From the NCBI RefSeq assembly GCF_000371785.1, contig NZ_AQUI01000002.1, positions 4,009,276 to 4,073,275 on the forward strand: a DNA stretch of 64,000 nucleotides. The letters run 5' to 3'. Origin of the DNA: Actinopolyspora halophila DSM 43834. GTDB lineage: Bacteria > Actinomycetota > Actinomycetes > Mycobacteriales > Pseudonocardiaceae. Positions 34,566 to 60,653 of the stretch are shown here, piece after piece. The notes beneath the pieces are model-generated. The model was not told the DNA's origin and did not search any database. It saw nothing but the letters and a program-made list of their open reading frames with translations. A program made the translations under genes and the position numbers. Each line of letters opens with the position of its first letter. Position 1 is the first letter of the stretch.

Positions 34566-34703
34566 GCTGTCCCGGTTCGCGTAGGCGACCGCTTGACTGA
34601 ACCTCCCGCGGGCTCCCGGGAGCGGGTGCCCCGACATCGGGTAGTGACCCACACGACATCGGGGCCGCACTCGCGAGAGCACGAAGCAGGAGAGCCCGTG
34701 GCC
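34566..34703 (-). repeat. Structured interspersed repeat, copy 1
   Basis: On the minus strand this copy aligns with the copies at 36158-36390 and 60431-60653. Shared blocks are CTCTCGCG, GCCCCGATGTCGTG, CTACCCGATGTCGGGG and TACGCGAACC. The inner stem is GCCCCGA (34628-34634) with TCGGGGC (34659-34665), and the outer stem CGCGGGCTC (34607-34615) with GAGCCCGTG (34692-34700). It starts 36 bases after the lipoprotein gene. Confidence 0.6.
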
Positions 34704-34791
34704 GTTCGGCTCGACAGAGCAGGCCCCGGCACGGCGACGCGAGGAAACATCGAGCTCTGACGGCCGAACGGGCACACCGGACGGAGCGCTG

Positions 34792-34896
34792 TCAGCAGCT
34801 GCTGCAGCACCCACAGGACGGTCCGCTGCAACTGCTGCAGCAACTGCAACCACCGAAGTGGGTTTCCGTCGCGGAATACACTACCGTTCGTTCCAT
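34792..34896 (-). CDS. Cysteine-rich 34-residue peptide
   Basis: A micro-ORF with a strong ribosome binding site: GGGAGG ends 5-6 bases before the ATG at 34896. Residues 1-14 (MERTVVYSATETHF) contain no Cys; after Gly15-Gly16 the last 18 residues are CSCCSSCSGPSCGCCSSC, that is 8 Cys, 7 Ser, 2 Gly and 1 Pro. This composition recalls cores of azole-forming peptides or small metal-binding peptides. No maturation enzyme gene (YcaO, dehydratase, dehydrogenase) is in the window. A palindrome GTATCGATAC at 34953-34962 lies in the probable promoter. The core is built on repeated GCA/GCT triplets, so a repeat artefact is the main alternative. Confidence 0.5.
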   Translation of the reverse strand: MERTVVYSATETHFGGCSCCSSCSGPSCGCCSSC

Positions 34897-35101
34897 GGCG
34901 GCCTCCCGATCGCAGGAACTTCGACGGGGCCGATCCTCTCCCGCCCCGATCCGTATCGATACCGCCGTACGGGCGAGAAACAACCGTTGAACATCGCCGC
35001 AGACGAGCGGAACGCGCGCACTCCCGCGCCACCGAAGCTCCCTACCTACGACGGTGTGAACTCTTCCGCGCACACCCGCACCGGAAGTTACCGTTGTAGT
35101 C
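34897..35101. promoter_or_regulatory. Divergent spacer between the Cys-rich peptide and a small membrane protein
   Basis: These 205 bases hold the palindrome GTATCGATAC (34953-34962). On the minus strand TTGTTT and TATCGA are 16 bases apart and could form a promoter for the peptide gene. On the plus strand TACCGT ends 7 bases before the ATG at 35102, which would make that gene leaderless. All are modest matches. Confidence 0.35.
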
Positions 35102-35410
35102 ATGGCACGCGCCGAGCACGGCGAACCGGACGAGCCGGCCGGCCGTTTCGCCGACGATCTGATCGGACTGGACCCGTACGATCCCGAGGCCCAGGAGTTC
35201 GCCGCGCATCTCGACCGCATACAGCAGTGCGACTCCAGAGCCACGGTGGAGGGAATGCTGCGCGGGGTGGGAGACTTCGCGCACAGCACCAACCGGCTGC
35301 GCGGCGAACGCAGGCTCGTGGCCGTGCTCCTGGTCGTGTTGATGCTGTTCGGGGTCGGCTTCACGGTGTGGAACGCCCTGGTGTACATGACCGCGACCTT
35401 CACCGGCTGA
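35102..35410 (+). CDS. Small single-pass membrane protein, unknown family
   Basis: I do not recognise this 102-residue protein. The first 70 residues are soluble and rather acidic (EPDEPAGRFADDLIGLDPYDPEAQEFAAHLDRI in part), and the last 30 form one membrane helix (LVAVLLVVLMLFGVGFTVW) with a short outside tail. A tail-anchored orientation with the N-terminal part in the cytoplasm is likely. It precedes msrB by 110 bp on the same strand and is divergent from the Cys-rich peptide. Confidence 0.65.
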   Translation: MARAEHGEPDEPAGRFADDLIGLDPYDPEAQEFAAHLDRIQQCDSRATVEGMLRGVGDFAHSTNRLRGERRLVAVLLVVLMLFGVGFTVWNALVYMTATFTG

Positions 35411-35520
35411 CCGGCGCTTTCCTGTGCGCACCGTGACGGGGGCGAACGGAGAACCCCGACGAGCGTGCTCGCCGACCTCGCCGGCTGGGCCGTCGGATCC
35501 CACCGGATTATCGTGGAGGT

Positions 35521-35955
35521 ATGGATCCGGTAGTGGGAGCCACCCCCAAGGTCGTCAAGTCCGAACAGCAGTGGCGGGAGCAGCTCGGCTCCGAGGAGTA
35601 CGCCGTGCTGCGCAAGGGAGCCACGGAACCCCCGTACAGCGGGGAGTACGTCGAGGAGAAGTCCGAGGGCGTCTACGAGTGCCGGGCCTGCGGGGCGGAG
35701 CTCTTCCGCAGCACGACCAAGTTCGAGTCGCACTGCGGTTGGCCGTCCTTCTGGGATCCGAGTGAATCCGACGCCGTGCTGCTGCGCGAGGACCGCTCAC
35801 ACGGAATGGTCCGCGTCGAAGTGCTCTGCGCCTCGTGCCACGGCCACCTCGGGCACGTTTTCGAGGGCGAGGGTTACTCCACCCCGACCGACCAGCGCTA
35901 CTGCATCAACTCGGTCGCGCTGCGACTCGTGGAAAGCGGTGAGTCCGAGAGCTGA
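35521..35955 (+). CDS. msrB: Peptide-methionine (R)-S-oxide reductase
   Basis: MsrB repairs methionine-R-sulfoxide in proteins. The 144-residue protein has the zinc site CxxC pairs (Cys54/Cys57 and Cys103/Cys106), the substrate block ESHCGWPSFW and the catalytic Cys128 in QRYCINS. There is no signal peptide, so it is cytoplasmic. Its position just before hemQ matches mycobacteria (Rv2674 to Rv2676c). Confidence 0.95.
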   Translation: MDPVVGATPKVVKSEQQWREQLGSEEYAVLRKGATEPPYSGEYVEEKSEGVYECRACGAELFRSTTKFESHCGWPSFWDPSESDAVLLREDRSHGMVRVEVLCASCHGHLGHVFEGEGYSTPTDQRYCINSVALRLVESGESES

Positions 35956-36130
35956 CCCCGGGCCGGGACCGCTTCAGCTCATCCGGAACGTGTGGTACCG
36001 AGCAGTGCTCTCCGCTCCGGTGACGGCGGTCTCGGCCACCGTCTCGACGGTGAACTCCTGCTCGGCGGCCAGCTCACGCAGATAGTCGAGGTCCCCCGAG
36101 GTCCCGAAGAAGACCAGCAACCGCCCCACT

Positions 36131-36150
36131 CCTACGCGAACCTGGACAGC
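36131..36150 (+). repeat. Tail of a truncated repeat copy
   Basis: CCTACGCGAACCTGGACAGC differs from the right end of copy 1 (minus strand at about 34566-34585) at one base. It stands directly before the full copy that begins at 36158, as if two copies once lay in tandem. Confidence 0.5.
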
Positions 36151-36157
36151 GAATACT

Positions 36158-36390
36158 CCGCGCGGATTGAGCGAGTGCTCGCCCGGGCGGGCCGTGCGCC
36201 GGGCAGATAACGCAGCTGCTTTTCACCACCCGAGCAACCGGCACCGCCGGGGGTTCTCAGTCACGGGTCTCGCGAGGACAGCCTCGACGTGGCGTAGGTG
36301 GTGGCTACTCGATGTCGAGGATCCCGCAGCGAGACCCCGACTGAGGTTCCCCCTCGGAACCACCCGAGCAAACCAACCCGTGCAACCTAG
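36158..36390 (+). repeat. Structured interspersed repeat, copy 2
   Basis: This copy starts with CGCGCGGATTGAGCGAGTGC, matching copy 3 at 60434. It folds into nested stems: CCGGGGG (36247-36253) with CCCCC (36349-36353) and CGG beyond it, CTCAGTC (36256-36262) with GACTGAG (36339-36345), GGTCTCGC (36266-36273) with GCGAGACC (36329-36336), and CCTCGAC (36282-36288) with GTCGAGG (36314-36320). It fills the gap in the broken methyltransferase gene. Confidence 0.65.
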
Positions 36391-36674
36391 AAGTTCTGTT
36401 GATCGGCTGCACCGAGGGCGGCACCCCGATGGTCCGACCCAGATAGGAGAAGGTGCGCTCGTCCGCTCCCTCCGCCAGAGCGGCCCGGTAGGCACGCTCG
36501 TGCCATCCACGGACCCGCTCGACCTCGGCCGCCGACATCCTCGGGCTGTGCCGCGCCGCGGGGTCCTCACCCGCCCGTCCCGACCGCTCGTGCATCGCCG
36601 CCCACCCTCCGCGGATCATTCCCGAACGGAAGGTTGCCGCACGCTCCGGGGCCGCCGCAAGAGGAGCCGAGTCC

Positions 36675-37373
36675 TCACGGAAGCCGTGCGACCAACGTCT
36701 CCGGCTCGACGCGGTGACCGGTGTAGAAGGGCGTCTCCTCGCGCACGTGCAACCGGGCCTGGGTCGCCCGCAGCCTGCGCATCACGTCGACCAGCCTGTA
36801 GAGCTCGTCTGCCTCGAAGGACAGGATCCACTCGTAGTCCCCCAGCGCGAAGGCAGGGACCGTGTTGGCGCGCACGTCCGGGTAGTCCCGCGCCTCCTTG
36901 CCGTGCTCGACGAGCATTTCCCTGCGCTCCTCGTCCGGAAGCAGGTACCACTCGTAGGAACGCACGAACGGGTAGACGCACACGTAGGCACGGGGTTCCT
37001 CGCCGGCCAGGAAAGCCGGGACGTGGCTCTTGTTGAACTCGGCGGGCCGGTGCACCGCCACGTTGCTCCACACCGGGTCACTCGCCCGGCCCAGCGGGGT
37101 GTCGCGCCGGAAATCCGTGTAAGCCGCCTGCACGTCCTCGATGCGCGGCCCGTGCCACCAGATCAGGAAATCGGCGTCCGCGCGCAGACCGGACACGTCG
37201 TAGACACCGCGCACCACGACGTCGGAGGAGTCCTCGAGGCCGTCCAGGAACTCCTTGGTCGCGGCCCCGGGTTTTTCCCTGTCCTCGGGCAGCTCGCCGG
37301 GGCGAACCCGAAACACCGACCACATGGTGTAACGGATCGTCTCGTTCAGTTCGGCATAGTTCAGGCGGGCCAT
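36675..37373 (-). CDS. hemQ: Coproheme decarboxylase (HemQ/ChdC)
   Basis: ChdC turns iron-coproporphyrin III into haem b with peroxide, the last step of the coproporphyrin route. The 232-residue protein has the actinobacterial ChdC pattern: [12 protein letters not shown], a central [29 protein letters not shown] with the likely radical-forming Tyr134, and [15 protein letters not shown] with the haem-ligand His157. It follows cgoX by 168 bp on the same strand and with hemE forms a haem gene group. Confidence 0.94.
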
Positions 37374-37541
37374 ACCGCTAGTCTGCCACTGTCACGAGCG
37401 GGTTCCGTGGAGAGGTCAACCACGCGCGCGCCGCTGTGGCCCCGTGCTCCGGGAGCGCCTGCTCGGTTCGGACGACCGGGAGGCCGACTGATCCACGACA
37501 ACCGAGCGGGCAGCGCACCACCGGCCACCGAACCCCCGCGA

Positions 37542-38954
37542 TCAGCCCGCCCCCGCGAGGAATTCGCCGATCCCCACCGCGGCCGTCTCACCCGTGCCCA
37601 CGCAGGCGGGCACACCCACTCCGTGCAGCGACGCACCGGCGACCTCGAGCCCTGGGGCACGGGAGACCGCGTCCTCGATCCCGGCCACCTTCTCCGCGTG
37701 GCCGACCCCGTACTGCGGCAGTCCACCACCCCACCGGACGACGGCGGTGTCGACGGGCTCGGCCGTCAAACCGGTCAGCTCGGCCAGATCGGCACGGACC
37801 CGACGCAGCAACTCGGCGTCGTCGAGCCGGAGCTCGCCGGGTTCGCCCCTGCCGACCGAGGCCCGCACGAGAGGCTCACCGCCGAGCCCGCGCAAATGCG
37901 GCCACTTGCGGCTGGAGAGGGTGAAGGCCTTGGCGGTGAAGGCCGTTCCGTCCCGGTGCCGCTCCCCGCGCGCGACGAGCACGCCCGAGGGCGACGGCAG
38001 CTCGACCTCGGCCGGGAGGGCCAGGCCCACAACGGCCATCGAAGCCAGCGAGATCTCCGCGAATCCCGCGGAAGCCTCGGGAACGCTCTCGGCCAGCAAC
38101 CCGCGGGCCGCGGGGGCGGGCACCGCGAGCACCACGGCATCGACGTCGAGCCTTCCCGGACGGGCAGCGGAGCCCGTGGCAAGGGACCAGCCGCCCCCCG
38201 CCCGCCACAACCGGCGCACGGTGACCCCACGTTCGATCCGAGCACCCGAACGATGTTCCAGGGCGTTGACCAGGGTTTCGTAACCTGCCGCGAAGGCCCC
38301 GAACACGGGGGGTTTGGCACTTCCTCCGGGGGCCGGGGCGGGCATCGCCTCGTTGACCGCCTCGGTCAACGACTTCGCGCCCGCGTCCAGCGCGGTCGCC
38401 AACCCCGGCATGGTAGCGCGCAGCCCCAGCGCGTCGGCCGAACCTCCGTAGACCCCGCCGAGCAACGGCTCCACGAGGCGCTCCACGACCTCGGCACCGA
38501 ACCGCTCGCGGAGCAGTTCGCCCACCGAGGCGTCGTTGCCCACCATCCGGAGCGGTGGCAGCTCGGGCTCCGCGGCGACCGCGCGGCACGCGCTCCCGGA
38601 CAACACGTGGCGAACGGCCTCGGCCGAGGCGGGAACTCCCATGAACATCCCGCTCGGCAGCGGATGGACCGTGCCGCCTGCCCTGATCCGCGCCGAGGCC
38701 CCGCTCGGGTGCACCAGTTCCGAACCGAGCCCCAGTTCCTCGGCCAACCGGGTGACCTCGGGACGACGTGCGAGGAACGCTTCGGCTCCGAGGTCGTAGC
38801 CTCGCCCCCCGAGCCGGGGAGTGTGCAGCTTCCCCCCGAGCCGGTCCGCCTGGTCGAGCACGACGATCTCGGCCGTCTCCCCCAGCAGACGGCGCAACCG
38901 GTAAGCGGCGGTCAGCCCGGAGACCCCGCCCCCGACGACGGCCACCCTGCTCAT
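37542..38954 (-). CDS. hemG: Coproporphyrinogen III oxidase (CgoX, HemG/HemY type)
   Basis: This FAD enzyme oxidises coproporphyrinogen III to coproporphyrin III in bacteria that have HemQ. The 470-residue protein opens with the dinucleotide motif VAVVGGGVSGLTAAYRLRR, continues with LDQADRLGGKLHT, and near the C-terminus has PACVGTGETAAVGIGEFLAG, the FAD-binding end. It starts 8 bp after the hemE stop. The name hemG/hemY is often used; coupling to HemQ makes the coproporphyrin role more likely than protoporphyrinogen oxidation. Confidence 0.93.
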   Translation of the reverse strand: MSRVAVVGGGVSGLTAAYRLRRLLGETAEIVVLDQADRLGGKLHTPRLGGRGYDLGAEAFLARRPEVTRLAEELGLGSELVHPSGASARIRAGGTVHPLPSGMFMGVPASAEAVRHVLSGSACRAVAAEPELPPLRMVGNDASVGELLRERFGAEVVERLVEPLLGGVYGGSADALGLRATMPGLATALDAGAKSLTEAVNEAMPAPAPGGSAKPPVFGAFAAGYETLVNALEHRSGARIERGVTVRRLWRAGGGWSLATGSAARPGRLDVDAVVLAVPAPAARGLLAESVPEASAGFAEISLASMAVVGLALPAEVELPSPSGVLVARGERHRDGTAFTAKAFTLSSRKWPHLRGLGGEPLVRASVGRGEPGELRLDDAELLRRVRADLAELTGLTAEPVDTAVVRWGGGLPQYGVGHAEKVAGIEDAVSRAPGLEVAGASLHGVGVPACVGTGETAAVGIGEFLAGAG

Positions 38955-38962
38955 CGGTCACC

Positions 38963-40051
38963 TCACCGTCGACTCGCGCTCGACGAGTGCACGAGCTCCA
39001 CGATCCGCGTCAGCACATCGGGGTCCGTATCGGGCAGCACCCCGTGCCCGAGGTTGAATATGTGTCCACCGGCGGAACGCCCTTCCGCGAGCACCCGCTC
39101 GGTTTCGCTCCGCACCGCGTCCCAGCCGGCGAACAGCACGGCCGGGTCGAGATTGCCCTGCACCACGGGCGGTCGGTGCTGCTGGGGATCGAGCCTGTTC
39201 ACCGCCCTGTCCAGCGGGACCCTCCAGTCGACCCCGACCACGCTGGCTCCCGAGTCCCGCATCGCCGTGAGCAGCTCACCGGTGCCCACGCCGAAGTGAA
39301 TCCGCGGCACCTCCTCCCCCGAGTACTCGGCGACCCCGCGCAGGATCCTGTTCGTGTGCGGCTGCACGTAAGCGGCGTAGTCGTGCGGGGAGAGCGCTCC
39401 CGCCCAGGAGTCGAACAGCTGGACGGCGTCCACTCCCGCGTCGATCTGGACGCGCAGGAACTCGAGCGTGGTCTCGGCCAGCTTGCCGAGCAGGGCGTGC
39501 CATGTCTCCGGCTCGGAGTGCATCAGGGCCTTGGTCCGCTCGTGGTTGCGGCTGGGTCCGCCCTCGACGAGGTAGGAGGCCAGGGTGAACGGAGCCCCGG
39601 CGAATCCGATCAGCGGAGTCTCACCGAGTTCCGCGACCAGGGTCCGGATCGCCTCGGCCACCCCTTCCACCTGCTCGGCTCGCAACGCGGGCAGGGCTGC
39701 GACATCGGCCGCGCCGCGCACCGGCCGGTTGACGACGGGGCCGGTCCCGGCGACGATGTCCAGCTCCACACCGGAGGCGTACAGCGGGAGCACGATGTCG
39801 CTGAACAGGATCGCCGCGTCCACCCCGTGCCTGCGCACCGGTTGCATCGTTATCTCGCTGACCAGCTCCGGGGTGAGACACGCGCGCAGCATCGGCACCC
39901 CTTCACGGGTGCGGCGGTACTCCGGCAGCGAACGCCCCGCCTGCCGCATGAACCACACCGGTGTGTGTGCCGGAGTACCACCACGTGCGGCCACGAGCAG
40001 CGGCGCCTCGTCGAGTCGACGACGGTTCGACACGTTCGCGGGAAGGCTCAT
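38963..40051 (-). CDS. hemE: Uroporphyrinogen decarboxylase
   Basis: HemE removes four carboxyl groups from uroporphyrinogen III to give coproporphyrinogen III. The 362-residue protein has the invariant N-terminal block [16 protein letters not shown], the catalytic Asp in [14 protein letters not shown], and [12 protein letters not shown], plus the C-terminal [16 protein letters not shown]. It is the first gene of the hemE-cgoX pair and is divergent from DUF3000, as in mycobacteria. Confidence 0.96.
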
Positions 40052-40439
40052 GAAAACTCCGCTGGTCGTAAGGGCGGAAGGGCCGTGGAGCTACCACGGT
40101 CCGCAACGGTCACGGCGAAGCGCCGCAGGGCAGGACGGGGAGCATCGTGGCAGCACACCGCGTTTCCCGTCACGCGAGGCAGGCGGGAGCACGGCAGGAA
40201 CGAACCACTGTACGCCCCTGCGGGGACCGGATCCGTCGTGACGGACCCGAGGTCATGTTCGCACGCCGTGCGCGCCGGACATCGTCCGGTCCTGCGTCGA
40301 GCGAGACCCGTCCCCGTTCCGCGCGGGCCCGCGATTCCCCCGGTACGGCCAGAGATCCGACTTCCTTCGGAGGAAGTTGTCGATGATCCACGGCGTGGCG
40401 TCACCACTCGGGAACGCAACGGGCTTACAGTTACCTGCC
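40052..40439. other. Divergent intergenic region hemE / DUF3000
   Basis: I see no gene in these 388 bases. The open frames have no domain pattern. Small inverted repeats occur (for example GGATCCGTCGTGACGGACC near 40228-40246). On the plus strand TACAGT (40426-40431) ends 8 bases before the GTG at 40440 and may be the -10 box of a leaderless DUF3000 transcript. Confidence 0.4.
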
Positions 40440-41018
40440 GTGACCGAGATGTCGGCGATTCCCCTTGTTTTTCGGGACGCGGTTGCCGCGTTGAAGTCCC
40501 TCGCACCACGTAGGGAGATTGAACTCGACGAGATCCGCCCACCGAAACGCCTGGCTCCGTGGACCTACGCGCTGGGTGCGGACACGTGCGGACCGAGCGG
40601 GACCGAGGTAACCGCGCGGTTGGTGTTGCTGCACGACCCGGACGGGCACCCCTCGTGGGAGGGGGTGCTGCGCCTGGTGGTCTATCTGCGCGCCGAAGTG
40701 AATCAGGACCTGGCGGGCGAGGAGGGAATCACCGAACTCGGATGGTCCTGGCTTACCGGAGCGCTGCGCTCTTGTGGCACATCGCACACCGCGCTCGGCG
40801 GGACGGTCACGGTCTCCTCCTCGACGAAGTTCGGCGAGCTCGCCCTGCCCGAGCAGGAGCACGAACTGGAGCTGCGTGGCTCCTGGACCCCGTTGGACGA
40901 GGAGCTGTCCGCACACGCACGCGCTTTCCACGAGCTGCTCTCCGCGGCCGCGGGCCTGCCCCCCGTTGGGGTGAGCGTGCTGGGCACCCGCTCCGCTGAA
41001 CGACGCAGGAACTTCTGA
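40440..41018 (+). CDS. DUF3000 protein (Rv2680-like)
   Basis: A 192-residue conserved actinobacterial protein of unknown function. The core reads FRDAVAALKSLAPRREIELDEIRPPKRLAPWTYALGAD, then GRLVLLHDPDGHP-like RLVLLHDPDGHPSWEGVLRLV and GWSWLTGALRS. The GTG at 40440 fits the family start best; ATG 40449 and ATG 40383 are alternatives. Position between hemE and ribonuclease D matches mycobacteria. It is cytoplasmic, with no membrane helix. A strong terminator follows. Confidence 0.87.
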   Translation: MTEMSAIPLVFRDAVAALKSLAPRREIELDEIRPPKRLAPWTYALGADTCGPSGTEVTARLVLLHDPDGHPSWEGVLRLVVYLRAEVNQDLAGEEGITELGWSWLTGALRSCGTSHTALGGTVTVSSSTKFGELALPEQEHELELRGSWTPLDEELSAHARAFHELLSAAAGLPPVGVSVLGTRSAERRRNF

Positions 41019-41042
41019 AGCACCTCCCCTCCTCCTTCGGGA

Positions 41043-41077
41043 GCGCCCCGGGAGCGACCGGGCCGCTCCCGGGGCGC
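41043..41077 (+). terminator. Strong hairpin terminator after DUF3000
   Basis: GCGCCCCGGGAGCG (41043-41056) pairs perfectly with CGCTCCCGGGGCGC (41064-41077) around a 7-nt loop, 25 bases after the stop. No T-tract follows. Confidence 0.75.
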
Positions 41078-42340: not shown

Positions 42341-42429
42341 TCGGATAAACGCTGTTGTGCGGCCCGGTGTCGACGAAATCGGACCATTTGGCTCACTCGG
42401 TCGGAGGAAGGACGTATCGTCTGGGAGCC

Positions 42430-43674: not shown

Positions 43675-43777
43675 CCCCGGGAAAAACCGCGCCGGGCCCC
43701 TCGCTCACCGCGGAGGACCCGAACCGCGTGTGACCGTTGAATTCGTGGTGTGGTTCAGCAGACAACGATCCCGCTGG

Positions 43778-43791
43778 TTACCGATCGGTAA
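43778..43791. promoter_or_regulatory. TTACCGnnCGGTAA operator 1 upstream of fadAB
   Basis: TTACCGATCGGTAA is a perfect 14-bp palindrome 104 bp before fadA. Its half-sites equal those at 12221-12234. Confidence 0.7.
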
Positions 43792-43809
43792 TGAGCGCTA
43801 GAGTGCACG

Positions 43810-43823
43810 TTACCGGCCGGTAG
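43810..43823. promoter_or_regulatory. TTACCGnnCGGTAA operator 2 upstream of fadAB
   Basis: TTACCGGCCGGTAG matches the same consensus with one terminal mismatch. Its centre is 32 bp from operator 1, about three helix turns, so two dimers could bind the same face of DNA. Confidence 0.65.
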
Positions 43824-49946: not shown

Positions 49947-49982
49947 GTCTTCAGACTGCCACAGCGACGCTCCCGCCGACGA

Positions 49983-51944: not shown

Positions 51945-52322
51945 CGCTCCACCTCGCTCGTCGTGCCCGACTACAGGTCGAATCGTGGACCGACCGTCCC
52001 GGAACGGCCGGCCGGCATCGTGGGCAACCGACTGTGCGGATGCCCGGAAACACGTTTTCGGGCCCTCGTGCTTCCGCCGCGTGCCCTTCTGATGTTTTGG
52101 GCTAGCCCTCGCGACCGTGCCAGTCTACTGAGCCGTACACGAGTCCGGTCCAGACGGCTGCCCGGAGTGCTCACTCATGAAGGTGACTCATCGAGGTTCT
52201 CCACGCACCTGCCGGGGCAACCGCCCGGGGGCCCTCCCACGAGGGCGCCGGCTGCCGGGATGTGGCCCCCGCCACCGCGGGCACCGAAGCACCCCACCGG
52301 TCATCGACACGGCGGGCGAGCC
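51945..52322. other. Leader of dxs and repeat-bearing spacer
   Basis: No gene is seen in these 378 bases. On the minus strand a possible -10 box TAGACT (52127-52122) would give a dxs leader of about 170 nt. In that leader GCCCGGAAA (52042-52050) pairs with TTTTCGGGC (52055-52063). Positions 52281-52321 match 4620-4660 with 33 of 41 bases identical and touch the end of the methyltransferase gene. Confidence 0.45.
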
Positions 52323-53582
52323 TCAGTCGGCGACCTCCAGCAGAGCGATGCACTCCACGTGGTGCGTCATCGGGAACGCATCGAAGGCCTCCAGCCGAGC
52401 GAGCCGGTACCCCTCCCGTTGAAACAGCTCCAGGTCCCGCGCCAACGCCGCCGGGTCGCAGGCGACGTAGACCACCCTGCGCGGGCGGGAACTCGCCACG
52501 GCGTCGACGACGTTCCGCCCCGCCCCCTTGCGCGGTGGATCGAGCACGACGACGTCCGGGGCCGGCATCGTCGGGTCCGTGACCACGTCCTCCACCCTGC
52601 CCTCGCGCAGCCGCACCTGCGGCATGTCCGCGAGGTTGGCGGTGGCGTCCCGCACGCTGGTCCGGGCCGACTCGACGAGCACCACGTCTCCCGTGTCCCC
52701 CACCCGGTTCCCCAGCACGGCGGCGAACAAACCGACCCCTCCGTACAGGTCCCAGGCACAGCCGCCCGGGGGCACCTCGACCATGCTGTCCACCACTTCG
52801 GCGAAGCGTTCCGCCGCCTGCCGATGGACCTGCCAGAAACCGTGCGCCGCTATCGCCCACTCGCGTCCGGCGGCGGTCTCGTGGGCGACGCCCGATCCAC
52901 GCACCTTGCGGGTCTTTCCCGGTTTCCTCCCGCCCCGGCTGCGCTTCCCGCGTGCGGGCGCACCACCGGGAAGGTGCTCGGTCACGTGCAGTTCTCCGGA
53001 ACCGTCCGCGGTCACCTCGACCTCCGCTCCCGGTGTCCAGGAACTCGAAGCGACCTCGTCCACGGTCCCCTCGACGGTGATCGGACAGTCGTCCGCGGGA
53101 ATCACGCGATGACTGCGGTGTGCGCGGAATCCGGCCCGGCCCTCTTCGTCGACGGCCAGCCGCACCCGAGTACGCCAGCGCAGCGCCCCACCGGGAAGCG
53201 ACTGCACCTCCACCGGGTGTTCGATCCCGGCCAGCCTCCACAGCTGTTCGGCCACCACGGAAGCCTTCAGCTCACGCTGGGTCGCCGGATCGGCGTGCTG
53301 CCAGTCGCAGCCCCCGCAACGGTTCGTCCCCAGTGACATGTCCGCCAGGGGGCACGGTGGTGTCACCCGGCCCTCGGCCGCCTCGACGACCCGCACGGCA
53401 TCGGCCCGGCAGAACCCCCCGCCGCGGTCCTCGGTCACCTCCGCTTCGACCGTTTCCCCCGGCAGCGCGTGCCGCACGAAAACGACTCTTCCCTCGTGGC
53501 GGGCGACGCAGTGCCCGCCGTGCGCGACCGGCCCGATCTCGAGCCGGAGACGACGTCCGTTCCAGTCCGGTTTCTCGTTCAA
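52323..53582 (-). CDS. TRAM-domain RNA (uracil-5-)-methyltransferase (Rv2689c-like)
   Basis: A 419-residue protein of the TrmA/RumA (RlmD) family. The N-terminal TRAM domain is LEIGPVAHGGHCVARHEGRVVFVRHALPGE in part. The [4Fe-4S]-type cysteines lie in PPCPLADMSLG..NRCGGCDW and DDCPITV. The SAM domain has WDLYGGVGLFAA and the catalytic Cys in VYVACDPAALARDL. It should methylate a uridine in rRNA or tRNA. The TTG at 53582 overlaps the permease stop as TTGA and gives the family's normal start. Confidence 0.9.
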   Translation of the reverse strand: MNEKPDWNGRRLRLEIGPVAHGGHCVARHEGRVVFVRHALPGETVEAEVTEDRGGGFCRADAVRVVEAAEGRVTPPCPLADMSLGTNRCGGCDWQHADPATQRELKASVVAEQLWRLAGIEHPVEVQSLPGGALRWRTRVRLAVDEEGRAGFRAHRSHRVIPADDCPITVEGTVDEVASSSWTPGAEVEVTADGSGELHVTEHLPGGAPARGKRSRGGRKPGKTRKVRGSGVAHETAAGREWAIAAHGFWQVHRQAAERFAEVVDSMVEVPPGGCAWDLYGGVGLFAAVLGNRVGDTGDVVLVESARTSVRDATANLADMPQVRLREGRVEDVVTDPTMPAPDVVVLDPPRKGAGRNVVDAVASSRPRRVVYVACDPAALARDLELFQREGYRLARLEAFDAFPMTHHVECIALLEVAD

Positions 53583-55585
53583 CGCTGGTCGTTTCCCTTC
53601 CCCTCTTGTCCGGCACCCCAGCGCACCGAACGACGCGGTGTCGGCGCACGCAGATCGACCCTGTTCGAGGACTCGAGCTGCCAGGGAACGCTCGTGACCA
53701 TCACTCCCGGCTCGAACAGCAACCTGCTCTTGAGCCGCAGGGCACTCTGGTTGTGCAGCAGTTGTTCCCACCAGCGCCCCACCACGTATTCCGGAATGAA
53801 CACCGTGACGACGTCGCGCGGACTACCTTTACGAATTCTTTTCACATACTCGACGACCGGGCGCGTGATCTCCCGATACGGGGACTCGAGGACCTTCAGC
53901 GGAACGGACACGCCGCGCTCCTCCCATGCGGCCACGAGCTGCCTCGTCTCCGAATCGTCCACGTTGACGGTGATGGCCTCCAACTCGTCGGGACGAGTGG
54001 CCCGCGCGTAAGCCAGCGCTCGCTTGCTCGGCAGGTGCAGCTGGGACACCAGCACGAGACCGTAGTTGCGCGCGGGCAGGACGGTCTGCCCCTCGGCACG
54101 TCGCAGCTCCTCCGCGACCCGCACGTAGTGCTTCCGAATCCCCACCATCAGCAGGTAGCTGGCCACCATGGCCCCGAGAGCTATCCAGGCTCCGTGCACG
54201 AACTTCGTGACCAGCACTATGACCAGCACCGTAGCCGTCATGCCCAGCCCGACGGAATTGATCGCACGCGCTCTGCCGATCTGCTTGCGCGCCTCCGGGT
54301 CGGTCACCTCGCGCAGCCGGCGGTTCCAGTGCCGGATCATCCCGCTCTGGCTGAAGACGAACGAGACGAACACGCCGACGATGTAGAGCTGGATGAGCTT
54401 GGTCACCTCGGCCTCGAAGACCAGCACCAACACGATGGCGAACCCCGCGAGGAACAGGATGCCGTTGGAAAACGTCAGCCGGTCCCCTCTGGTGTGCAGC
54501 TGCCGGGGCAGGTACCGGTCCTGGGCGAGCACCGACCCCAGCAGCGGGAAACCGTTGAAAGCGGTGTTGGCCGCCAGCACCAGGATCAGCCCGGTGAAGA
54601 AGATCAGGTAGTACACGGCCGGTTGAAAACCGCCGAAGACCGCTCCGGCCAGCTGGGCGATCAGCGTCTTCTGCTCGTACCCGGCCGGAGCTCCGATCAA
54701 CTGCTGCTCCGGGTCCTGCACGATCAGCACACCGGTGGTCCTGGCCAGCAGCAACAACCCCATGAACATGGCGACCGCTACCAGCCCCATCATCAGCAGC
54801 GTTGTGGCGGCGTTGCGCGACTTGGGTTTGCGGAAGGCGGGCACACCGTTGCTGATCGCCTCCACTCCGGTCAGCGCGGCACTCCCCGAGGAAAAGGCGC
54901 GCAACACCAGGAAGACGAAACCCAACCCGGCCAGCTGGGAGGGCTCCTGGGCCAGCTCGAATCCCGCGCTCTCCGCGCGCAGCTCGTCCCCGAGCACGTA
55001 GGTGCGGTACAGCCCCACACCGATCATGCCGAGGATCCCGAGGGCGAAGGCGTAGGTGGGAACGGCGAACATCGTCCCCGACTCCCGCACTCCGCGCAGG
55101 TTCACCGCCGTCAGCACGACGATCGCTCCCACGGCGAACGCCGCCTTGTGGGTGGCCACGAACGGGACCAGCGAGCCTATGTTGGCCGCGGCCGAGGATA
55201 TGGACACCGCCACGGTGAGGACGTAGTCGACCATCAGCGCACTGGCCACCGCCACCCCCCATCTGGATCCGTGGTTGACGGTGGCCACCTCGTAGTCACC
55301 CCCGCCCGAGGCGTAGGCCCGCACGTTCTGGCGGTAGGAGGCCACCACGACCAACATCACGGCGGCGACCACCAACCCCACCCACGGGCTGATCGCGTAG
55401 GCCGACACTCCGGCCACGGACAGCGTGAGAAGGATCTCCTCCGGCGCGTAGGCGACGCTGGACATCGGATCCGACGCGAACACCGGCAGGGCGATGCGCT
55501 TGGGCAGCAATGTGTGCGACAACCGATCGCTGCGGAAAGGTCGCCCCACCAACAGACGCTTGGCCATGGTCGCGAGCTTGGGCAC
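53579..55585 (-). CDS. APC-family permease (Rv2690c-like)
   Basis: A 668-residue membrane protein with 12 predicted helices in the first 440 residues and a C-terminal soluble domain (VPLKVLESPYREITRPVVEYVKRIRKGSPRDVVTVFIPEYVVG). LPVFASDPMSSVAYAPEEIL and SALTGVEAISNGVPAFRKPKSRNA are typical of the amino-acid/KUP-like APC proteins next to trkA genes in actinobacteria. Neighbouring TrkA proteins suggest potassium or amino acid transport. GTG at 55585 has no Shine-Dalgarno and lies 7 bases after a TACGCT box, so it is probably leaderless. Confidence 0.92.
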   Translation of the reverse strand: MPKLATMAKRLLVGRPFRSDRLSHTLLPKRIALPVFASDPMSSVAYAPEEILLTLSVAGVSAYAISPWVGLVVAAVMLVVVASYRQNVRAYASGGGDYEVATVNHGSRWGVAVASALMVDYVLTVAVSISSAAANIGSLVPFVATHKAAFAVGAIVVLTAVNLRGVRESGTMFAVPTYAFALGILGMIGVGLYRTYVLGDELRAESAGFELAQEPSQLAGLGFVFLVLRAFSSGSAALTGVEAISNGVPAFRKPKSRNAATTLLMMGLVAVAMFMGLLLLARTTGVLIVQDPEQQLIGAPAGYEQKTLIAQLAGAVFGGFQPAVYYLIFFTGLILVLAANTAFNGFPLLGSVLAQDRYLPRQLHTRGDRLTFSNGILFLAGFAIVLVLVFEAEVTKLIQLYIVGVFVSFVFSQSGMIRHWNRRLREVTDPEARKQIGRARAINSVGLGMTATVLVIVLVTKFVHGAWIALGAMVASYLLMVGIRKHYVRVAEELRRAEGQTVLPARNYGLVLVSQLHLPSKRALAYARATRPDELEAITVNVDDSETRQLVAAWEERGVSVPLKVLESPYREITRPVVEYVKRIRKGSPRDVVTVFIPEYVVGRWWEQLLHNQSALRLKSRLLFEPGVMVTSVPWQLESSNRVDLRAPTPRRSVRWGAGQEGKGNDQR

Positions 55586-55592
55586 GACCCAG

Positions 55593-55598
55593 AGCGTA
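55593..55598 (-). promoter_or_regulatory. -10 box for the leaderless APC permease transcript
   Basis: TACGCT on the minus strand ends 7 bases before the GTG start. Just upstream is an inverted repeat (55607-55615 with 55620-55627, half-site CACCG) in the -35 region that could bind a repressor. Confidence 0.45.
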
Positions 55599-55606
55599 AG
55601 GGCCGA

Positions 55607-55627
55607 GGATCACCGGACTCGGTGACC
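55607..55627. promoter_or_regulatory. Inverted repeat in the permease promoter
   Basis: GGATCACCG and CGGTGACC are separated by GACT. The repeat lies between the divergent permease and trkA genes; the rest of the 373-bp spacer (55586-55958) shows no gene that I can support. Confidence 0.4.
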
Positions 55628-55958
55628 CTCGGTCCTCGTAGCGGCCGCCGTGCCCCCGCGGGGACACAACTCACCCGGAACTGCCGCGGACTTTCGTCCG
55701 CCGGAGTGGAACGCACGGATTCCCCGCTTTCGGAACTCCCAGGGAACGGACGTGAAAACCCCTGTGGACGAACGGCTCCGTTCACCCGATACGGTGCATC
55801 AGCCCGGATGCGGTGGCCTCGTTCGCGGGAATGAATTCCGGCCGAGGAAGAAGGACGCGGAATTCCGTCATCCGAGGAGTACTGTCATGGTCGTGGGACG
55901 GTTCACCGAATCGCCCCGCGGTCGATCCGGAAACCAGCCGAGAGCGAGGAAACCGGTC

Positions 55959-56624
55959 GTGCATGTTGTGATCCTGGGCTGCGGCCGAGTCGGAGCTTCC
56001 CTGGCCGCGGCGCTGCAACGGCTCGGTCACACCGTGGCGGTGGTGGACAAGGACCCCGAGTCCTTCCACCGACTGAGCAAGGAGTTCCGCGGAAGGCACG
56101 TCACGGGTAACGGTTTCGACAAGGACGTGCTCGCCGAGGCGGGCATCGAGCAGGCCGGGGCCTTCGCCGCCGTTTCCAACGGGGACAACTCCAACATAGT
56201 CTCCGCCAGGGTGGCACGCGAAACGTTCGGCGTGGAACAAGTCGTCGCCCGTATCTACGACCCCAAGCGGGCCGAGGTCTACCAGCGTCTCGGGATCCCC
56301 ACCGTGGCCACCGTCCCCTGGACGACCGATCGTTTCCTGCGCATGCTCCTCCCCGAGGGGGCGGCCACGGAATGGCGGGACCCCTCCGGGTCGGTCGCCG
56401 TGCTGCGGCTCCCCCTGCACGAGGACTGGGTCGGCAAACGGGTCCGCGACCTGGAAACGGCGCTCGGCTGCCGAGTGGCGTTCGTGATGCGCTTCGGCAA
56501 CGGGGTGCTCCCGCAGTCCAACACCGTCGTCCAGGCCGACGACACCGTCTACGCGGCCACCCTGTCCGGCACTGTCACCGATGTCACGGCCACCGCGCAG
56601 CGCCCACCCGAGGAGGGGGAGTAA
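55959..56624 (+). CDS. ceoB: TrkA-type potassium uptake protein, first copy
   Basis: A 221-residue cytoplasmic regulator of K+ transport. The RCK_N domain begins VHVVILGCGRVGASLAAALQRLGHTVAVVDKDP with a GxGxxG NAD-binding motif, followed by GNGFDKDVLAEAGIEQA. The RCK_C domain runs from about 145 to the end. GTG at 55959 (GAGGAAA upstream) is chosen because it starts the fold; an ATG at 55887 would add 24 unrelated residues. It overlaps the second trkA gene (TAATG). The pair equals mycobacterial ceoB/ceoC. Confidence 0.92.
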   Translation: MHVVILGCGRVGASLAAALQRLGHTVAVVDKDPESFHRLSKEFRGRHVTGNGFDKDVLAEAGIEQAGAFAAVSNGDNSNIVSARVARETFGVEQVVARIYDPKRAEVYQRLGIPTVATVPWTTDRFLRMLLPEGAATEWRDPSGSVAVLRLPLHEDWVGKRVRDLETALGCRVAFVMRFGNGVLPQSNTVVQADDTVYAATLSGTVTDVTATAQRPPEEGE

Positions 56625-57295
56625 TGCGTGTCGCGATCGCCGGCGCAGGCGCCGTCGGACAGTCCATAGCCAAGGAGCTGTTGGAGGGCGGGCATCAGAT
56701 CATGCTCCTCGAGCGCTCCACCGGGAACTACCACCCCAGATCCATCCCCGATGCCCAGTGGGTGCACGCCGATGCCTGCGAGCTGTCCTCCCTCGAAGAG
56801 GCAGGCATCGAAACCTGCGACGTCGTGATCGCCGCTACGGGCGACGACAAGGTGAACCTCGTGGTCTCGCTACTGACCAAGACCGAGTTCGCGGTACGAC
56901 GCGTCGCGGCCCGCGTGAACGACCCCCAGAACGAATGGTTGTTCACCGAGGCCTGGGGAGTGGACGTGGCTGTTTCCACCCCGCGAATGCTCGCCGCCAT
57001 GGTGGAGGAAGCGGTCAGCGTCGGAGACGTCGTCCGGCTCATGACCCTGCGCCAGGGTCAGGCCAACCTCGTGGAGATGACCCTGCCCGAGGGCACACCG
57101 CTGGCGGGACACCGAGTCAGGGATCTGACCCTCCCCCGGGACGCCGCACTCGTGGCGATACTCCGGCGCGGACGGGTGATCGTCCCCCAGTCCGACGACC
57201 CGCTGGAGGTGGGCGACGAAATGCTGTTCATCGCCCCGGAGGAACTCGAACACCGCATCAGCGAACTGGTCCACGACCCGCCGGGGCTCGACTGA
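56624..57295 (+). CDS. ceoC: TrkA-type potassium uptake protein, second copy
   Basis: A 223-residue paralogue of the preceding protein. It starts MRVAIAGAGAVGQSIAKELLEGGHQIMLLER with GAGAVG as NAD-binding motif, has DACELSSLEEAGI and VVIAATGDDKVNLV, then RCK_C from about 140 (MTLPEGTPLAGHRVRDLTLPRDAALVAILR in part). ATG at 56624 shares a base with the previous stop and has GGAGGGGGAG upstream. The two proteins probably form a hetero-assembly that gates a Trk channel, which is not encoded here. Confidence 0.93.
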   Translation: MRVAIAGAGAVGQSIAKELLEGGHQIMLLERSTGNYHPRSIPDAQWVHADACELSSLEEAGIETCDVVIAATGDDKVNLVVSLLTKTEFAVRRVAARVNDPQNEWLFTEAWGVDVAVSTPRMLAAMVEEAVSVGDVVRLMTLRQGQANLVEMTLPEGTPLAGHRVRDLTLPRDAALVAILRRGRVIVPQSDDPLEVGDEMLFIAPEELEHRISELVHDPPGLD

Positions 57296-57355
57296 CCGAT
57301 GTCGTCAGCTCTCCCGCGTCGTAAGTAGTCACTGGGCGGAACCTCTCACGGGCTC

Positions 57356-58174
57356 TCACCCGGTGGCGGGCCGCCCGGAAGCGGGAGGCTCCTCCCCCTG
57401 CTGCGCTCCGGAGCCCGCCGCTGTCGTCACCGTCTGCAGTTCGGCGATCTTGTTGGCCCGTCGAATCGCCCAAACGGTGATCAACAGGGCCAGTGCGGTG
57501 AGCGGATAGCTCATCGCGATCCGCGCGAAGGCCAGCCACCCCGTCTCGTCCGCCGCGTAGAGCCACTGCTGCACCACGAACTTGGCGATGAAGACCACGG
57601 TCCAGGACAGCGTGGCCAGGTCGTACCCGCGCAACGCCCTGCGCTGGTGCCGCCAGGAGAAACCACTGCCGTTGAGCACCGACCAGGCGACACCGACCAA
57701 CGGCCACCGCACGACTGTCGAGATCAGGAAGACTCCGCCGTAGATCAGGCTGGTCCAGATACCGAGCAGGAAGAATCCCTTGGCGTCCCCGGTCCGGTAC
57801 GCGATGAAGGAACAGACCACGACACCGAACACACCCGATATCGCGGGCTGCAGAGGTTCCTTGCGGATGACGCGTGCCACGGCTATCAACAGGGAGACCG
57901 CGATGGCGATCCAAATGGCCGGGATCATTCCGACCAACGAGTTCGCCACCACGAACACGACGATGGGCACCGCGGAGTAGGCGAGTCCGCTGACGCCGCC
58001 CATCTGTTGCAGCAACGTCTGCTCGGTCCCGCCGGCCCCTGCCGAGGGACGTAACCCGAACGGTGCCTTGGCTTCCCCCGCCGAGTCGGACTCGACAGGA
58101 TCGGCTGACGCCGCGTCAGTAGACCCCCCGCGAGGTGTTTGCCCTTCGGGGGTCGATGAACTGGATTCGGTCAT
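57356..58174 (-). CDS. DUF3159 membrane protein (Rv2693c-like)
   Basis: A 272-residue protein with an acidic N-terminal 50 residues and about five to six membrane helices in the rest. LLQQMGGVSGLAYSAVPIVVFVVAN and GKGFFLLGIWTSLIYGGVFL-type segments (here AKGFFLLGIWTSLIYGGVFL) are DUF3159 hallmarks. The function is unknown. ATG at 58174 overlaps the stop of the OB-fold gene by 4 bases (ATGA), so translation is coupled. The gene order matches mycobacteria. Confidence 0.9.
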   Translation of the reverse strand: MTESSSSTPEGQTPRGGSTDAASADPVESDSAGEAKAPFGLRPSAGAGGTEQTLLQQMGGVSGLAYSAVPIVVFVVANSLVGMIPAIWIAIAVSLLIAVARVIRKEPLQPAISGVFGVVVCSFIAYRTGDAKGFFLLGIWTSLIYGGVFLISTVVRWPLVGVAWSVLNGSGFSWRHQRRALRGYDLATLSWTVVFIAKFVVQQWLYAADETGWLAFARIAMSYPLTALALLITVWAIRRANKIAELQTVTTAAGSGAQQGEEPPASGRPATG

Positions 58175-58548
58175 GCGGTGTTCTGCAACTCGTAGTAGGG
58201 GTTGTAAAGAACCTTGTGTCCGTCACGATCGGCAATTCGACCCCGCGCCTTGATGGTTCGGCCGGGATCTATCCCGATGATCTTCCGTCTGCCGAGCCAA
58301 ACCAACGTCACGCCCTCGGTGCCGTCGTACAGCTCCGCTTCCAGAGTCGGAACCGAGGCCTTCGGGACCATACCGACACAGCGGAGCCGGCCGAGCACCT
58401 CCGCCTGTTCGCCACACTTGCAGTCACACGCGCGCCGCGCCCCGCTCGCCTGTGACATCTCGGAGAGGTCATCGGCGTCGAGCTCGGCGACGTCGCTGGT
58501 GAGACGGCGTACGAGACGACGTAGGTAGCCGTCCCCGGTATTGCTCAT
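58171..58548 (-). CDS. OB-fold nucleic-acid-binding protein (Rv2694c-like)
   Basis: A 125-residue protein. ATG at 58548 (GGGAG upstream) begins MSNTGDGYLRRLVRRLTSDVAELDADDL. The OB-fold part is EVLGRLRCVGMVPKASVPTLEAELYDGTEGVTLVWLGRRKIIGI in pieces, ending GHKVLYNPYYEL. A cluster ACDCKCGE may bind metal. Such OB-fold proteins are found with DUF3159 and DUF3710 throughout actinobacteria; their ligand is not known. Confidence 0.9.
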   Translation of the reverse strand: MSNTGDGYLRRLVRRLTSDVAELDADDLSEMSQASGARRACDCKCGEQAEVLGRLRCVGMVPKASVPTLEAELYDGTEGVTLVWLGRRKIIGIDPGRTIKARGRIADRDGHKVLYNPYYELQNTA

Positions 58549-58708
58549 CTCGCGCTCCCGTGCGCAGTGGGCCTCGTGACCCGTGCAGGTTACACCCGTG
58601 CGATTACAGCCTAGCCGTGTCCGATTCCCGCGTCTGCGACTCGGCGGAAAACGACCACGTTCTCCTGTCGGAGAGCCGGTACGGGAGCACCCGACGGGGA
58701 AACGCGCA

Positions 58709-59347
58709 TCAGGCCTGCGCCTGTTCCTGCTGTTGTTGGAGGTGCGCGGCGATCTCCTCGGGCAATTCGATCGGCAACGGAGTGCGCACCGGCATCGGCT
58801 CCGAGCCACGGTCCACCACTGCTTCGTCGATCACCGCGTAGAGCAGCTTCGTGCAGGCGTCGAGATCGGCGGCCGGGCTCGCCGCCACACCGCGCAACAA
58901 CCAGCGCGGCCCGTCCACGCCCACGAAGCGCAGTGAGGTCTTCGCGGTCTCGGCGACCAGTTCGGTGTCCCAGCCCCCGTCCTCGAAACGCACGGTCGCC
59001 CCGTCGGAACGCAGCTGATCCACCAGTTCCTGGCGGACCTCCTGCCAAAGATCACCTGTTCGTGGGGCGGCGAACGCGCTCACAGTCAGCCTTCCCGAGG
59101 GGGTGAGCAGGTGAACCGCCCGCACCGGCCCCTCCGGGTCGATCTCCACCTGCAACTGACTGTTCTCGGGAACGGGCAACCGCACGGACCCGAGATCCAG
59201 TCGCTCGATCTCGTCGTCCGGGGCTTCCTGCTTGTCGTATGGGCCGCCCTCGACGACGGACTCGTCCTGCCCACGGTGTTCGTCGTCGAATCCGGAATCG
59301 TCGTCCACTCGGTCGTTCCGCCCGCCGCGACGGCGCCATCCGAACAT
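58709..59347 (-). CDS. DUF3710 protein (Rv2696c-like)
   Basis: A 212-residue soluble protein. The ATG at 59347 follows GGAGG by nine bases and gives the family start MFGWRRRG. An acidic linker is followed by RLDLGSVRLPVPENSQLQVEID, HLLTPSGRLTVSAFAAPRTGDLW and FVGVDGPRWLLRGVAAS, which define DUF3710. The C-terminus is a Gln-rich helix (HLQQQQEQAQA). It begins 4 bp after the dut stop and so is in the dut operon. No function is known. Confidence 0.9.
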   Translation of the reverse strand: MFGWRRRGGRNDRVDDDSGFDDEHRGQDESVVEGGPYDKQEAPDDEIERLDLGSVRLPVPENSQLQVEIDPEGPVRAVHLLTPSGRLTVSAFAAPRTGDLWQEVRQELVDQLRSDGATVRFEDGGWDTELVAETAKTSLRFVGVDGPRWLLRGVAASPAADLDACTKLLYAVIDEAVVDRGSEPMPVRTPLPIELPEEIAAHLQQQQEQAQA

Positions 59348-59351
59348 CCCC

Positions 59352-59858
59352 TCAGACCTCCGTATTACCGGTCGTGTTGCCCACGGTCCCGGCGTCGATC
59401 GAATCAACCAACGCCCCGTGGCCTCCGGTGGAACCATATCCGCCGGTGCCACGCACGGACTCTGGCAGTTGGGCGACTTCTTCGAAAGCGGCCTGCTCGA
59501 CACGCTGTATCACCAACTGGGCTATTCGGTCCCCGCGCAGCAGATTCAACCTCTGCTCCGGATCGTGATTGATCAGACACACCTTGATCTCCCCACGATA
59601 GCCCGCGTCGATCGTGCCCGGCGCGTTCACCACGCCGAGGCCCGATCTGGCGGCCAGCCCGGAACGCGGGTGCACGAACCCCGCGTAGCCCTCGGGCAGA
59701 GCTATCGCGACCCCGGTGCCGACCACGGCACGTTCCCCCGGGCGAAGTTCGAGGTCCTCGGTCGTGACGAGGTCGGCTCCCGCGTCCCCCGTTCGCGCGT
59801 AGGACGGTATCGGCACTTCGGAATCGGTACGAGTCAGCAGGACCTTCACGCTTGGCAC
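59352..59858 (-). CDS. dut: dUTP diphosphatase
   Basis: Dut hydrolyses dUTP to dUMP, which keeps uracil out of DNA and feeds thymidylate synthesis. The 168-residue trimeric-type enzyme has its five motifs: [37 protein letters not shown] and the C-terminal [13 protein letters not shown] choose the GTG at 59858, where the family starts and which lies 8 bases after a TAGTCT box with no Shine-Dalgarno; a TTG nine bases upstream lies within the -10 box itself. Divergent from DUF3093. Confidence 0.94.
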
Positions 59859-59866
59859 GAGGAACA

Positions 59867-59876
59867 AGACTACCCT
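59867..59876. promoter_or_regulatory. Overlapping divergent -10 boxes of dut and DUF3093
   Basis: The ten bases AGACTACCCT hold TAGTCT on the minus strand (59872-59867, for dut) and TACCCT on the plus strand (59871-59876, for DUF3093). Both boxes are 6-8 bases from a GTG start, so both transcripts would be leaderless, and the two promoters share two base pairs. Confidence 0.5.
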
Positions 59877-59882
59877 GGAGAC

Positions 59883-60389
59883 GTGTCGGAAAGTTCAGAA
59901 GCGGGGCTCGTGGGCGGTTCGCCGTCCGAGACGTCGAAGAGGCGCGGGCACTTCCGCTACCGGGAACGGGTACACGCCTCGTGGTGGAGTTGGCCGCTGC
60001 CTCTCGTCGCGGCGACTCTGCTCGCGGCCGAAGTGCACATGGGCTATCCCGGGCTTCGCGCCTGGCTTCCCTACGTGGTGCTGCTCCCGCTCTCGCTCGC
60101 GCTGCCCGTGCTGCTGAGCAGGTTGCGCATCCTCGTCACCGACGAGGAGCTCGTGGTCGGCAACGCACGGCTGCCGCTGCGTTTCGTGTCCGAGGTCGAG
60201 GTGATTCCGCGCGAACGCAAGCAACGTGCCCTCGGTCCCGAACTCGACCCGGCGGCTTTTCTGGTCCACCGACCGTGGGCTCCGACGGCCGTGCGGATCT
60301 GGCTGGAGGACCCCGAGGATCCGACACCCTACTGGGTGGTCAGCACCCGCCATCCCGAACGATTGGCCGCCGAGCTGAACACGGAGTGA
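59883..60389 (+). CDS. DUF3093 membrane protein (Rv2698-like)
   Basis: A 168-residue protein with two membrane helices (about 37-52 and 59-82), followed by a soluble domain: [32 protein letters not shown] and [30 protein letters not shown] in part. This is DUF3093, always found next to dut in actinobacteria; the soluble part resembles PH-like membrane proteins. GTG at 59883 has GGAG only 2 bases before it, so leaderless initiation is more likely than a Shine-Dalgarno. Function unknown. Confidence 0.9.
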
Positions 60390-60391
60390 CC

Positions 60392-60412
60392 CCGGAGGTC
60401 TCGCACCTCCGG
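60392..60412 (+). terminator. Hairpin terminator after DUF3093
   Basis: CCGGAGGT (60392-60399) pairs perfectly with ACCTCCGG (60405-60412) around 5 nt, 2 bases after the stop codon. A second perfect hairpin (60473-60497) lies within the adjoining repeat. Confidence 0.7.
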
Positions 60413-60430
60413 AGCCGCGCTCCTCGGAGA

Positions 60431-60653
60431 GCGCGCGGATTGGGCGAGTACCCGCTCGGGCGGGTCGGTCGTCGGAAAGCGGCGGAGCCGCTTTCCGCCA
60501 TCCACGAAGTCGCCGCCGCGGGTTGTCCCGTGGTGTTCTCGCGCGGACGGTCCCGACGTCGTGCAGCACCGCTACCCGATCTCGGGGCGCTCGTTCACGA
60601 GCCCGCGGGAGGGTCCGTCAAGCAAGCACCCACGCGAACCGATCCGCGCAACC
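60431..60653 (+). repeat. Structured interspersed repeat, copy 3
   Basis: This copy shares CGCGCGGATTG-GCGAGT and CGGGCGGG with copy 2 and CTACCCGATCTCGGGG, GAGCCCGCGGGAGG, GTCAAGC and ACGCGAACCG with copy 1. Stems: an 11-bp perfect hairpin CGGAAAGCGGC/GCCGCTTTCCG (60473-60497), the outer stem CCGCGGGTT (60516-60524) with GAGCCCGCGG (60599-60608), and the inner stem GTCCCGA (60550-60556) with TCGGGGC (60582-60588). It fills most of the 353-bp gap between DUF3093 and DUF4193. Confidence 0.65.

Follow-up and report, generated by a model that had tools for sequence, protein, structure and literature searches.

Three copies of a folded repeat in the window

The window analyzed here, a stretch of 64,000 nucleotides from Actinopolyspora halophila DSM 43834 (contig NZ_AQUI01000002.1, positions 4,009,276 to 4,073,275), carries three copies of an interspersed repeat with a folded core, which neighbor genes for a TAP-like hydrolase, HemQ and the DUF3093 and DUF4193 proteins (Table 1). 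A sequence-only reading of this DNA had aligned three copies by eye and described an inner and an outer stem in each. When R1, a covariance model built from several genera, was run on the window by cmsearch, exactly these three copies were matched. The inner stems are as they had been read. The outer stems are also present, but they had been drawn partly out of register, since in the family's register GCGG/CCGC is followed by a GTT/GTT internal loop and then by CTC.../...GAG. For copy 2, the alignment within the home genome spans 36158–36390. In copies 1 and 3 the core is degenerate, and the R1 alignment leaves several of its pairs broken; for this reason the three window copies alone are insufficient to prove covariation, which many copies do prove.

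The element is short and carries no transposase gene, copy 3 measuring 229 bp by our own parse. Imperfect terminal inverted repeats are clear in copy 3 and were seen by eye in several Saccharopolyspora soli copies; many home copies carry other left modules. The likely right end of copy 1, of GAGGTTCTCCG type, starts within ~2 nt after the TGA (34528–34530) of the TAP-like hydrolase gene, and this type of end recurs at other copies. Genes around the copies were called with our own simple codon-usage caller in 1.064 Mb of home DNA, where 71 copies score at least 60 bits. None of the 71 overlaps or lies within a called gene, so that the intergenic placement described for the window extends to the family.

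Table 1. Features of the three repeat copies and neighboring genes, in window coordinates
Feature	Position	Strand	Basis and remarks
Copy 1, folded core, degenerate	34596..34700	-	R1 51.4 bits, E 5e-10; outside the training set
Copy 1, likely right end, GAGGTTCTCCG-type	34531..34543	-	Direct reading; exact boundary putative
Copy 2, approximate whole element	36155..36388	+	Degenerate terminal repeats by eye
Copy 2, folded core	36248..36352	+	R1 103 bits, E 1.4e-22; in the training alignment as L001
Copy 3, whole element, 229 bp	60427..60655	+	Empty sites in congeners G001 and G002; ends by own parse
Copy 3, folded core, degenerate	60517..60618	+	R1 43.1 bits, E 5.4e-8; outside the training set
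Copy 3, left terminal repeat GAGAGCGCGCGGATTGG	60427..60443	+	Direct reading
Copy 3, right terminal repeat, inverted (plus strand CCGATCCGCGCAACCTC)	60639..60655	-	Direct reading
TCG left of copy 3, possible 3-bp direct repeat	60424..60426	.	Direct reading
TCG right of copy 3, possible 3-bp direct repeat	60656..60658	.	Direct reading
Copy 3, small left hairpin GGAAAGCGGCGGAGCCGCTTTCC	60474..60496	+	Direct reading; same hairpin before the core in other genera (by eye)
Neighboring gene, TAP-like hydrolase	33070-34530		
Neighboring gene, HemQ	36675-37373		
Neighboring gene, DUF3093	60039-60389		
Neighboring gene, DUF4193	60743-61045		

A covarying core in 15 genera

The core is a single long irregular hairpin of ~102 nt. 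Outermost is GCGG/CCGC, followed by the GTT/GTT internal loop and a helix with 17 modelled pairs; an asymmetric loop, in which a GCGAGGACAGC side faces a ATCCCGCAGC side, separates this helix from an inner one of 9 pairs, and a GTA...TAC hairpin forms the apex. The loop motifs are nearly invariant between genera, and the internal loops remain unpaired. In many copies, those of other genera included, a small AAGCGGCGNAGCCGCTT hairpin (GCGGC..GCCGC) was seen by eye before the core. Some copies of Saccharopolyspora rosea and Amycolatopsis (L283, L292, L310 and L327) have, again by eye, a second GC-rich repeat inserted in their hairpin.

Covariation was assessed for 34 pairs in 73 copies of the hairpin family to which this core belongs, family I (72 distinct; 40 from the home genus and 33 from other genera), with a second hairpin family, family II, excluded. 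Because the copies were picked by a motif pattern together with seven hand-placed loci, divergent copies are under-represented in this set. Standard pairs fill 92.0% of the paired cells, compared to 35.8–46.7% when one arm is slid by 1–3 columns. Both sides change in 21 of the 34 pairs, which amounts to 287 cells relative to a shuffled mean of 97.8, and the covariation score is 0.314 (shuffled mean 0.097; slid versions at most 0.067). The observed pairing and covariation values were matched by none of 500 shuffles; the shuffles do not keep relatedness, and the structure was drawn from these same sequences, which favors it over the slid versions. The joint change of both arms, first noticed in three copies, is thus strong over many.

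Judged on its aligned sequences, the core has the covarying, conserved secondary structure by which a structured RNA is recognized. Rfam gave no match in the window at the families' gathering scores; searches of five loci at E up to 5 gave seven sub-threshold matches, none of them on the core, and we found no description of this repeat family in the open-licence literature. Of the earlier reading, a structured repeat family kept by compensatory change is supported; its functional strand may be either RNA or single-stranded DNA.

In the home genome the stems fall into discrete types. Both outer arms are of one named type in 55 of the 79 family I copies; among the other 24, two of the three named types are paired in 10, type a meets a fourth right arm in 7 and an unnamed arm is present in 7. 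Types were assigned by patterns, and in the 79 copies four left arms and five right arms received no name. Coupling between the two arms of one stem (V 0.68 for the outer and 0.71 for the inner stem) exceeds that between arms of different stems (0.34–0.43, above permutations in three of four comparisons), the permutation mean being 0.22. Stems have also been altered in place: on the 3' side of gatB, at a site examined in five genomes of a single related genus, compensatory steps changed the stem (GatB was named from one of these five genomes). In three of the five copies at this site (L362, L363, L365, L367 and L368), a long open frame enters the tail of the element.

Further copies, whose absence would have spoken against a repeat family, are abundant in the genome and its relatives. 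In the home genome (G000, 5.35 Mb), each window copy used as a DNA query yielded matches that are the best 40–42 of 218–252 first-look candidates. The sampled home DNA, 1.264 Mb made up of sixty 20-kb stretches and the window, contains 97 copies that do not overlap and score 40 bits or more. The left side of the element is modular, with at least three different left modules before the same core. Family II has other stems, and has its flanks and part of the apical region in common with family I. Under strict filters, the covariance model placed the element in 78 of 297 genomes of the home taxonomic family, representing 15 of 46 genera; the remaining 219 genomes gave no match. In a class-wide sample of 394 genomes, only G000 and G058 matched, both of the home taxonomic family, and a DNA search found the element in 14 of 41 relatives. 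The exact core motif occurs in records of Saccharopolyspora, Amycolatopsis, Sciscionella and Actinopolyspora, all of which we take to be Pseudonocardiaceae, and in three records without the remaining core. An Actinopolyspora biskrensis record holds repeats 85–88% identical to copies of the congener G002, with flanks that are unmatched in the sampled DNA of the home genus. Plasmid records gave no match to one Saccharopolyspora copy, and phage records none to one home copy.

Along the main contig the density of copies is uneven, with none in the first 60 kb, 13.8 per 100 kb at 60–400 kb, 0.5 per 100 kb at 2.4–2.6 Mb and again a dense stretch at 4.4–4.7 Mb (L069–L128). A 69-bp insertion relative to G002 in L125 at ~9005 (home contig 5184005) begins and ends near TTTCGCGCGAAAC palindromes.

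Orientation beside stop codons and exchange at shared sites

The 71 copies are not placed at random. The downstream gene is antisense in 53 of them, compared to 43.9% for random placement in intergenic gaps, and the stop codon of this antisense gene lies 6–28 nt past the match in 45 of 71, relative to 4.2% of random placements within 30 nt; the binomial tails (1e-7 for the antisense bias and 5e-44 for the stop spacing) ignore relatedness among copies. There is no such spacing on the upstream side, where the distance to the upstream gene end runs from 24 to 323 nt. Convergent gene pairs are enriched: they flank 31 of the 71 copies, versus 72 of the 427 intergenic gaps that measure 180 bp or more. 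Named relatives contributed 68 genome-contig matches, from which L264 (Mycobacterium), L272 (Haloparvum) and L301 (Streptomyces) were left out because their surroundings lack the rest of the core; of the remaining 65, 54 were scored. The random-placement figures given above apply to the home genome. The orientation was antisense in 40 of these 54 copies, and a stop codon lay 25–59 nt past the GGTTCCGC motif in 31.

Copy 3 is absent in the close relatives G001 and G002, where its flanks continue without interruption. This agrees with the mobile element that was among the earlier readings of the repeat. Of 65 home copies with anchored flanks, 30 could be paired with a copy scoring at least 60 bits in G001 or G002, and 35 could not. 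Hairpins are often swapped between species at the shared sites: of the 30, nine switched hairpin family, eight differ in both outer arms and five in one, five are the same and three are family II in both, and some of the switches may be wrong pairings, since some intergenic gaps hold two copies. This block-wise exchange, the fixed orientation with its stop-codon placement and the spread over 15 genera were all unforeseen in the sequence-only reading.

Other insertions bear on the ends of the element. Two related small insertions in G002, at home positions 4597033 and 4040228, have TCA or TGA at either side; the one at 4040228 sits, by our own reading of the frame, at a TGA stop codon. By eye, identical 4 bp were found at two Saccharopolyspora soli copies. 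Within the window, a 132-bp insertion at 52195–52326 that is absent in G001 has TCA on both sides by our own parse and GAGG-type ends, and gives no match to the core. The insertion at home position 4040228 corresponds to ~30953 of the window, a site that is empty here; in G002 it measures 108 bp, lies between two TGA triplets and carries part of the hairpin, reversed.

Weighing the origin of the repeat

On balance, we lean towards a non-autonomous mobile element that a protein recognizes through its folded single strand. The repeats would be elements of ~200–230 bp around the conserved folded core of ~102 nt, in which stems vary freely and co-vary, internal-loop motifs stay fixed and the small GCGGC..GCCGC hairpin precedes in many copies. 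A trans-acting protein would recognize the folded strand, RNA or single-stranded DNA, via the conserved loops, and this recognition would keep the two arms complementary even as their sequence changes or is swapped block by block. The protein would then place the element so that its right end comes to lie next to the stop codon of an opposite-strand gene, perhaps with a short direct repeat as the rule. Insertion at this position would leave the gene intact and may give it a hairpin 3' end. Such recognition by a protein is proposed because neither Y1 transposases nor reverse transcriptase are common to the copy-rich genomes, and because the searches made found no longer element with these ends.

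Several observations weigh against this reading. The terminal and direct repeats are compatible with an ordinary derivative of a DNA transposon, which has no need of a fold. Copy 3 has TCG on either flank, but neither G001 nor G002 has TCG at the empty site, and a duplication is unproved. Direct repeats are not general either: the clean cases in G002 come from related modular elements instead of full core elements, and imperfect repeats or none were seen at several further polymorphic insertions. Differences confined to the hairpin at home positions 5162724, 4660774 and 5168470 may be deletions in G002. None of the window copies belongs to the 6–28 nt class, since copy 1 (antisense to its neighbor), copy 2 and copy 3 lie 42, 298 and 100 nt from the stop. 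An excess of G.T over A.C cells is expected if one strand is read as RNA, but it is small (80:42, compared to 115:82 in shuffles); the raw excess had looked strong, and a strict claim for an RNA strand was dropped once the shuffles showed it to be modest. Finally, the search for Y1 transposases, reverse transcriptase and longer elements with the same ends gave no mobilizer or partner. In the sampled home stretches, with up to 3 mismatches allowed, only weak inverted end pairs 0.4–4 kb apart were found; the 11 of these that were checked enclose 17 open frames, 16 with a Pfam match and none a transposase, one interval being clipped at a stretch end. The exact GCGCGGATTGG end motif gave, in three genomes, one inverted pair ~125 bp apart and none at 0.5–5 kb.

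Elements that serve the host at gene 3' ends, as terminators, RNA stabilizers or insulators, and that spread mainly by recombination between copies with mobility secondary, would account for the over-representation of convergent pairs and for the gatB site, where five genomes have a copy 3' of the gene and the stem has undergone compensatory change in place. We regard this explanation as rather unlikely, given that 219 of the 297 genomes of the taxonomic family lack the element and that more than half of the anchored home copies (35 of 65) have no counterpart in the close relatives examined. Quasi-palindrome correction is a known mutational process, and the repeat could on that basis be an ordinary miniature inverted-repeat transposable element (MITE) of an unseen DDE insertion sequence, its arms kept alike by such correction or by template switching and not by selection on the fold. 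Like MITEs derived from DDE transposons, the element is short, gene-free and polymorphic between close relatives; the imperfect terminal inverted repeats and possible 3-bp direct repeat of copy 3 fit as well, as do stems that come in few discrete types and are swapped whole. Yet arm copying should erase the internal loops, which are unpaired and nearly invariant between genera, and one orthologous site shows compensatory steps taken singly. A strong orientation bias is unexpected for a symmetric transposon, and fixed orientation together with a precise right end argues against a symmetric DNA transposon alone. Unlike MITEs, the element is oriented beside stop codons and has a covarying fold with fixed loops across genera, and no related insertion sequence was found, the searches for a longer element with the same ends having given no transposase. 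We therefore consider the MITE explanation improbable.

Two further explanations name a specific enzyme. In a retroelement resembling short interspersed nuclear elements, reverse transcription of the element RNA would start at a nick next to the stop codon, leaving the 3' end precise, the 5' end variable and the orientation fixed, and the repeat does combine a precise right end and fixed orientation with a variable left side. RVT_1 was detected in one of nine copy-rich congeners, and in 7 of 20 copy-rich genomes versus 9 of 21 with few or no copies (41 genomes in all). Reverse transcriptase was rejected as the partner, and this origin is very unlikely. Repetitive extragenic palindromic (REP) sequences and bacterial interspersed mosaic elements (BIMEs), moved by a REP-associated tyrosine transposase (RAYT) or another Y1 (IS200/IS605) transposase, share high copy number, hairpins, mosaic arrays and fixed orientation at the target with the repeat studied here; more than 100 copies per genome, palindromic structure, mosaic combinations and extragenic position are likenesses to REP/BIME as portrayed in PMC2817692. 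The element differs in its core of ~102 nt with a multi-part fold and in that Y1 transposases are not common to copy-rich genomes. Y1_Tnp is absent from G002 and G008, both copy-rich, among ten congeners, so that Y1 or RAYT was rejected as a general partner. Y1 loci were also rejected as a repeat-flanked source, one core copy lying within ~3.3 kb at one of 12 fetched loci (12 of 24 Y1 matches). The linked RAYT that had been suggested for this repeat is not supported, and we consider an origin of this kind the most improbable of those weighed here.

Our favored explanation, an element recognized by a protein through its folded strand, would belong to a kind already known, the small interspersed mobile repeats; what is new is the covarying core across genera and the directional placement at stop codons. 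The BOX, RUP and SPRITE repeats of Streptococcus pneumoniae are likewise small and interspersed with extensive secondary structure, and passages of the paper on them (PMC3049150) judge them parasitic elements, nearly absent outside closely related species. The fold described here differs from them in spanning 15 genera and in being oriented beside stop codons. Genome-wide stem-loop families, a further likeness, have been surveyed in bacteria (PMC2267715), in a report whose main text does not mention Streptomyces, Saccharopolyspora or Actinopolyspora.

The spread over 15 genera, the strong covariation and the sharp directional preference for stop codons point to an unrecognized mobilizer. More doubtful, though conceivable, is that the repeat represents a new class of mobile element, in which the folded RNA or single-stranded DNA is the recognized unit, stems can be rewritten as long as they pair, ends differ by genus and the element docks in one orientation at stops; if so, genes would gain a structured 3' end without being broken. 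The repeat family offers a clean system for how mobile elements choose gene ends, and should its hairpins serve as 3' ends, they would shape the transcript ends of many genes simultaneously.

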